From NCBI GenBank assembly GCA_001798075.1, contig MGRG01000002.1:1-46630 (forward strand): a stretch of 46,630 nt of DNA, read 5' to 3'. The notes under the pieces are model-generated. The model was not told the DNA's origin. It made no database searches and was given only the letters and a program-made list of their open reading frames with translations. Position 1 is the stretch's first letter; every line of letters begins with the position of its first letter. Positions 41,771 to 42,093 of this stretch are shown here, piece after piece. A program made the position numbers and the translations under genes. The DNA comes from Deltaproteobacteria bacterium RIFCSPHIGHO2_01_FULL_43_49 (lineage in GTDB: Bacteria; UBA10199; SPLOWO2-01-44-7).

Positions 41771-42093
41771 TGGGTCGCCGGGGGATCGAACCCCGGACCC
41801 TCTGATTAAGCAACAGTTGTCTCCAAATTTCTCTGGAGTGTCGGACTATCTCATCTCGCCAAAGTTTGAACGGCGAGCCGGGCGCTTATGAGGGTTTATT
41901 GGTTGCCATCCTCACCCTCTAGTCTCTGCACCTTCCGAATTACTTGAATGGCTTCATTCGGCTTGGCTCAGGATTGGCATATCTGCTTTTAGGCGATTTA
42001 GCGTCTCCTGAATTCACCCGGTTTGCATATCCATCTCACGATGAATAGGACCCTTAATTGAGTCAGATGCTCTACCAACTGAGCTAGCGACCC
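41771..42093 (-). tRNA. tRNA-Lys (anticodon CTT), interrupted by a group I intron
   Basis: Exon 1 (42093-42061) gives acceptor GGGTCGC, D-arm GCTC..GAGC and anticodon stem TCTGA then CT. Exon 2 (41810-41771) gives CTTAA, stem TCAGA, T-arm CGGGG-TTCGATC-CCCCG, acceptor GCGACCC and discriminator A. Joined, the 73-nt tRNA is canonical, with loop CTCTTAA. The break follows U33. CCA is not encoded (CAA follows). Confidence 0.95.
41811..42060 (-). ncRNA. Group I self-splicing intron in tRNA-Lys(CTT)
   Basis: The intron has 250 nt, from C 42060 to the terminal G 41811. P1: exon GACT plus intron C pairs with the guide GGGTC (42053-42049), with U.G at the splice site. P10: guide ATTAAG pairs with exon CTTAAT. 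P2 is CATC-GTGA-GATG. P3 CCGGGT pairs with GCCCGG, P4 TCAGGA with TCCTGA (42006-42011/41968-41973). Q is AATCCTGAGCC; R is GTGCAGAGACTAGA (41918-41931); P7 GACTA pairs with TAGTC in S (41843-41850). P8 is TCGCC/GGCGA and P9 CTCCA/TGGAG. An extra hairpin GAGGGT/ACCCTC between P7 and P3' suggests the IA type. No homing endonuclease is present. Confidence 0.93.

Follow-up and report, generated by a model that had tools for sequence, protein, structure and literature searches.

The window, a stretch of 46,630 nucleotides from Deltaproteobacteria bacterium RIFCSPHIGHO2_01_FULL_43_49 (genome G000), contains a complete tRNA-Lys(CUU) gene on its minus strand (42093-41771), in which U33 is followed by a group I intron of 250 nt. 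The insertion is almost certainly a ribozyme lodged between U33 and C34 that is spliced out to leave a seamless tRNA.

Boundaries and structure of the intron

Exon 1 (42061-42093) comprises positions 1-33 and ends in U33; in the acceptor and anticodon stems it pairs with exon 2 (41771-41810), which runs from C34 to A73. The 3′ CCA is not encoded. The intervening intron (41811-42060) begins with C, ends with G and carries no ORF. Its boundaries were set by the U33.G pair, the terminal G, a 7-nt anticodon loop and the intact orthologues; under the rules of U before the intron, G as its last base and a 7-nt loop, 42060-41811 is the single solution. Joining the exons, GGGTCGCTAGCTCAGTTGGTAGAGCATCTGACT followed by CTTAATCAGAGGGTCCGGGGTTCGATCCCCCGGCGACCCA, produces a perfect standard 73-nt cloverleaf of tRNA-Lys(CUU) with the anticodon loop CUCUUAA, and the junction matches the sequence found in relatives whose tRNA-Lys(CUU) is uninterrupted. 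The group I model RF00028 (gathering score, 50 bits) covers the intron over its full length, model positions 1-253 of 253, at 76 bits and E=1.2e-17. The original prediction of a 250-nt group I intron splitting tRNA-Lys(CTT) directly after U33 is thereby confirmed, in its host and its splice site as well as in the kind of intron.

The gene is poorly visible to tRNA searches. The tRNA model RF00005 scores just 13.4 bits at the locus, and a default ARAGORN run calls no tRNA at 42093-41771. When introns were allowed in the source genome, ARAGORN named the host Leu(caa), an artefact of junction placement that was rejected because the U and G rules and the 7-nt loop give Lys. Neither a sigma-70 promoter-like nor a terminator-like site was found above chance at the locus.

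All helices from P1 to P10, including the P3/P7 pseudoknot and P7.1, can be drawn in the intron. P1 (42049-42064) pairs GACU (42064-42061) with GGUC (42052-42049), placing a U33.G wobble at the splice site, and is identical in all seven known Lys introns, each of which has a G in P1 opposite the U at -1 and a terminal G; at 4 bp, P1 alone is not significant in any single sequence. The adjoining guide strand UUAAG (42053-42057) forms P10 with CUUAA of exon 2 (41810-41806), a pairing whose length varies between 2 and 8 bp in the seven introns. P2 (42028-42047) consists of 8 bp closed by a GUGA tetraloop. The 5′ strand of P3 (42015-42021) pairs with 41884-41878, and P4 (42012-42007 with 41972-41967) is followed by P5 within 41967-42012 and by P6 and P6a (41931-41966). 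The guanosine site lies in P7, formed by GACUA (41920-41924) and UAGUC (41848-41844). Between the 5′ strand of P7 and the 3′ strand of P3 stands a P7.1 hairpin (41890-41919), which is an insertion relative to RF00028, and P8 (41855-41877) and a P9 with a GAAA tetraloop (41821-41838) complete the fold.

Comparative support was drawn from two alignments, one of the seven Lys introns and one of 14 related Lys, Leu and Asn introns. Paired cells make up 95.5% of the drawn structure in the first and 88.8% in the second, falling to 30-47% in every slid control, although the structure was drawn on the source intron's own sequence, which favours it over slid versions in this measure. Changes on both sides of a pair are stronger evidence than paired cells; they affect 23 of 64 pairs among the Lys introns and 35 of 64 in the larger set, the latter count exceeding all shuffles and slid controls, and the observed covariation scores were unmatched in 500 of 500 shuffles. 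Within the Lys introns, seven of the eight P2 pairs changed on both sides and P9 is 93.9% paired. Across the 14 sequences, P3 and P5 are 100% paired and P4 98.8%, with two P3 pairs changed on both sides, while both-side changes reach 6/6 pairs in P6a, 6/6 in P8 and 4/6 in P7.1. P7 is invariant in 14/14 sequences and is conserved rather than covarying, since it never varies. The predicted fold of the entire precursor lies 3.8 sd below those of shuffled sequences. The U.G wobble, the P10 pairing, helices P2, P3, P4, P7, P8 and P9 and the P7.1-like hairpin had each been anticipated, and all of them hold up; the outcome against which the prediction had been staked, the lack of an RF00028 match with a conserved P7, did not occur. 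As P7.1 covaries, assignment to subgroup IA is plausible, the extra helix between P7 and P3 that marks this subgroup being present. Subgroup IC3 is defined by having no helix in that place, and the presence of a covarying P7.1 sets the intron outside it.

Distribution and competing explanations

A homologous intron occurs in the same tRNA and at the same position in seven of the 46 genomes of the class (G000, G003, G004, G019, G029, G034 and G039; that of G029 was placed by alignment). An intact tRNA-Lys(CUU) gene, identified by an exact anticodon-arm pattern, is present in 25 genomes and never together with the intron; the other 14 have neither the intron nor an intact gene under this strict pattern. 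When the exons of G004 are joined at the junction, they are identical over 76 nt to the intact tRNA-Lys(CUU) of G005, a genome placed in one genus with the intron-bearing G003. The intact G005 gene is flanked by AI-2E transporter and malate synthase genes, as in the source window, and is therefore an orthologous empty site. A pattern scan of about 85,000 species genomes returned four real loci, all in the source lineage, and no true case beyond it, with a pattern built partly on the local sequence of P3, which a divergent intron would escape. Matches in Bacteroidales, Nocardioides, Planctomycetales and Barnesiella, as well as in three viral contigs, lacked an RF00028 match and were dismissed as chance.

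The tRNA census of the source genome, taken from RF00005 matches, contains an intact tRNA-Lys(UUU) but no intact tRNA-Lys(CUU), tRNA-Asn(GUU) or initiator tRNA. A second, intact tRNA-Lys(CTT), which the prediction had named as a possible objection, was thus looked for and not found. The tRNA-Asn(GUU) and tRNA-fMet genes were found only as intron-bearing copies; at an assembly completeness of 98%, an intact copy that escaped detection is improbable, though possible. The sole tRNA-fMet (L072, minus strand, G000:C8:384000-385400) has a 639-nt group I intron after U33, whose ORF matches PDDEXK_5 (E=6e-47), and the sole tRNA-Asn(GUU) (L073, minus strand, G000:C6:128600-129300) has one of 260 nt after U35. 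Since no other copies of these interrupted genes were found, the genome must be capable of such splicing. tRNA-Ser(GCU) was also not found in the census, owing either to an assembly gap or to an interrupted gene that was missed. A further oddity is a tRNA (L059, minus strand, G000:C11:181899-181988) with a long variable arm like those of Leu and Ser tRNAs and the anticodon UGG, for Pro codons.

The standard two-step guanosine reaction would fit the features of the Lys intron. In the precursor, the internal guide would pair with exon 1 in P1, including U33.G, and a guanosine bound in P7 would attack after U33. The freed 3′-OH of U33 would then attack after the terminal G while P10 holds exon 2, giving a seamless tRNA-Lys(CUU) and a free intron. 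Splicing itself and its GTP-dependent autocatalysis are predictions from sequence, and that of splicing is strengthened because the cell could not live without splicing of the essential sister genes. Two points weigh against this reading: the intact tRNA-Lys(UUU) could read AAG by wobble, so that poor splicing of tRNA-Lys(CUU) might be tolerated, and no promoter-like site rises above chance.

That same tRNA-Lys(UUU) leaves room for a dead tRNA-Lys(CUU) gene whose intron has decayed, with all lysine decoding left to tRNA-Lys(UUU), and splicing of the Lys intron is a prediction. However, the exons join into a perfect cloverleaf, every core helix is intact, and P3, P4 and P7 are conserved in seven genomes in which other pairs change in compensation, which makes decay very improbable. 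The position of the intron in the anticodon loop would also suit removal by a tRNA splicing endonuclease of the archaeal bulge-helix-bulge type, but the insertion lies at 33/34 rather than at the canonical 37/38, its 250 nt hold a complete group I core that includes the P3/P7 pseudoknot, and the tRNA introns of bacteria have been described as group I introns that splice themselves (PMC4033280). Such an enzymatic route has next to no likelihood. Equally negligible is an assembly or binning artefact in which foreign sequence came to lie between the halves of a tRNA: the relatives with names are MAGs, yet the arrangement recurs in seven genomes, with groundwater and (by name) lake records among them, its strands covary, and G005 retains a syntenic empty site. 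The recurrence already refutes an artefact.

Interrupted translation RNAs in the source class

Group I introns were surveyed with RF00028 over the genomes of the class, and host tRNAs were resolved by exon joining. Besides the Lys(CUU) introns, which follow U33 in seven genomes, the survey identified introns after U35 of Asn(GUU) in 13 genomes, after U33 of fMet in four (all about 640-667 nt), after U33 of Leu(UAA) in two and after U34 of Arg(UCU) in one. The last of these introns (L118, G016:C10) measures 243 nt and is very divergent in its core; its branch is very long and its placement in the tree unsure. Three of the tRNA-Asn introns (L093, L087 and L092) span 536-552 nt, enough for an ORF. 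Several Asn genes were called Thr by ARAGORN with introns, again an artefact of junction placement that the U and G rules and the 7-nt loop resolve to Asn. In some of them a Thr reading also satisfies the boundary rules; it was rejected on two grounds, the pairing of the guide GCAG with CUGU and acceptor stems shared with the other Asn genes.

A tree of intron cores clusters the introns by host: the Lys introns form one clade (91/89), the Leu introns adjoin it (Lys+Leu, 87/92), and the Asn introns fall into two sets. The internal guide is GGUC in the Lys and Leu introns and GCAG in most Asn introns; the P1 pairing of the fMet introns is ambiguous in this comparison. The Lys intron belongs to a tRNA-intron family of the class whose guides vary from one host tRNA to another. 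Given the grouping by host, intron gain seems to have happened once or twice per tRNA, the guide being fitted to its host. We infer that introns have moved between tRNAs, and likewise infer the route by which one reached tRNA-Lys(CUU).

Interruptions in the source genome extend beyond its tRNAs. The tmRNA gene (L075, minus strand, 2634 to about 1665, G000:C12) contains a T-loop group I intron with a LAGLIDADG_3 ORF, and two group I matches lie inside 23S rRNA (G000:C14:51943-52224 and 52815-53213). tmRNA matches adjoin intron matches at L119 and L106 as well, and group I matches occur in the 23S rRNA of several other genomes of the class. A weak match of 29.8 bits is located in the 16S-23S spacer (G000:C14:49104-49325).

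The interrupted tRNA genes across the class suggest that protein synthesis depends on RNA self-splicing. A class-wide spread of small group I introns among tRNA genes through guide change (Lys, Asn, Leu and perhaps Arg) is likely though not secure, a reading in which initiation, asparagine decoding, ribosome rescue by tmRNA and the large ribosomal subunit of one cell would all depend on self-splicing RNA. With the only initiator and asparagine tRNAs, tmRNA and 23S rRNA interrupted, translation would rely on ribozymes and possibly on guanosine and Mg2+ levels. Because standard tRNA finders miss or misname interrupted genes, such genomes seem to be without essential tRNAs.

Relation to known introns

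The list of tRNAs known to host introns in bacteria is short. From a lineage that has received little study, the present survey adds tRNA-Lys(CUU), tRNA-Asn(GUU) and tRNA-Arg(UCU), and with them intron families that are specific to a site and vary in guide with their host. A search of the open-licence literature returned no description of group I introns hosted by tRNA-Lys(CUU) or tRNA-Asn, in keeping with the original suggestion that the Lys site may be new; an earlier report elsewhere is possible. For bacteria, a 2014 account names cyanobacteria, alpha- and beta-proteobacteria as carriers of tRNA introns (PMC4033280). A 'tRNA-Lys group I intron' has been claimed in the tRNA-Lys anticodon loop of Gloeocapsa PCC 73106, in a paper whose cyanobacterial introns measure 22-49 nt (PMC5733544); at that length it is too short for a group I core and was set aside as a precedent.

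The IC3 tRNA introns of the Anabaena type share with the Lys intron a place in the anticodon loop, a U.G splice site, a length below 300 nt and, usually, the lack of an ORF. They are inserted after U34 and have no P7.1, whereas the Lys intron occupies another tRNA, follows U33, as do the Leu(UAA) introns of its own class, and possesses P7.1. The covariation of this hairpin sets the Lys intron apart from the tRNA introns of subgroup IC3 in Anabaena and Azoarcus. Anticodon-loop group I introns are also found in tRNA-Ile(CAU) of Azoarcus, which lacks P7.1, and in tRNA-Arg(CCU) of Agrobacterium. Together with the tRNA-Ile2 introns of Acidovorax and Burkholderia (PMC8450103), these occupy the same type of site in other hosts.

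Another anticodon-loop group I intron is that of cyanobacterial tRNA-fMet, with its PD-(D/E)XK homing enzyme of the I-Ssp6803I type. Its parallel in the source genome is the tRNA-fMet intron encoding a PDDEXK_5 protein; the Lys intron differs from it in its host and in carrying no ORF and no homing gene. Group I introns in the T-loop of tmRNA are already known (PMC11915505), and resemble the Lys intron in having a structural RNA as host, a P7.1 region and the U and G boundary rules, while differing in host and site.
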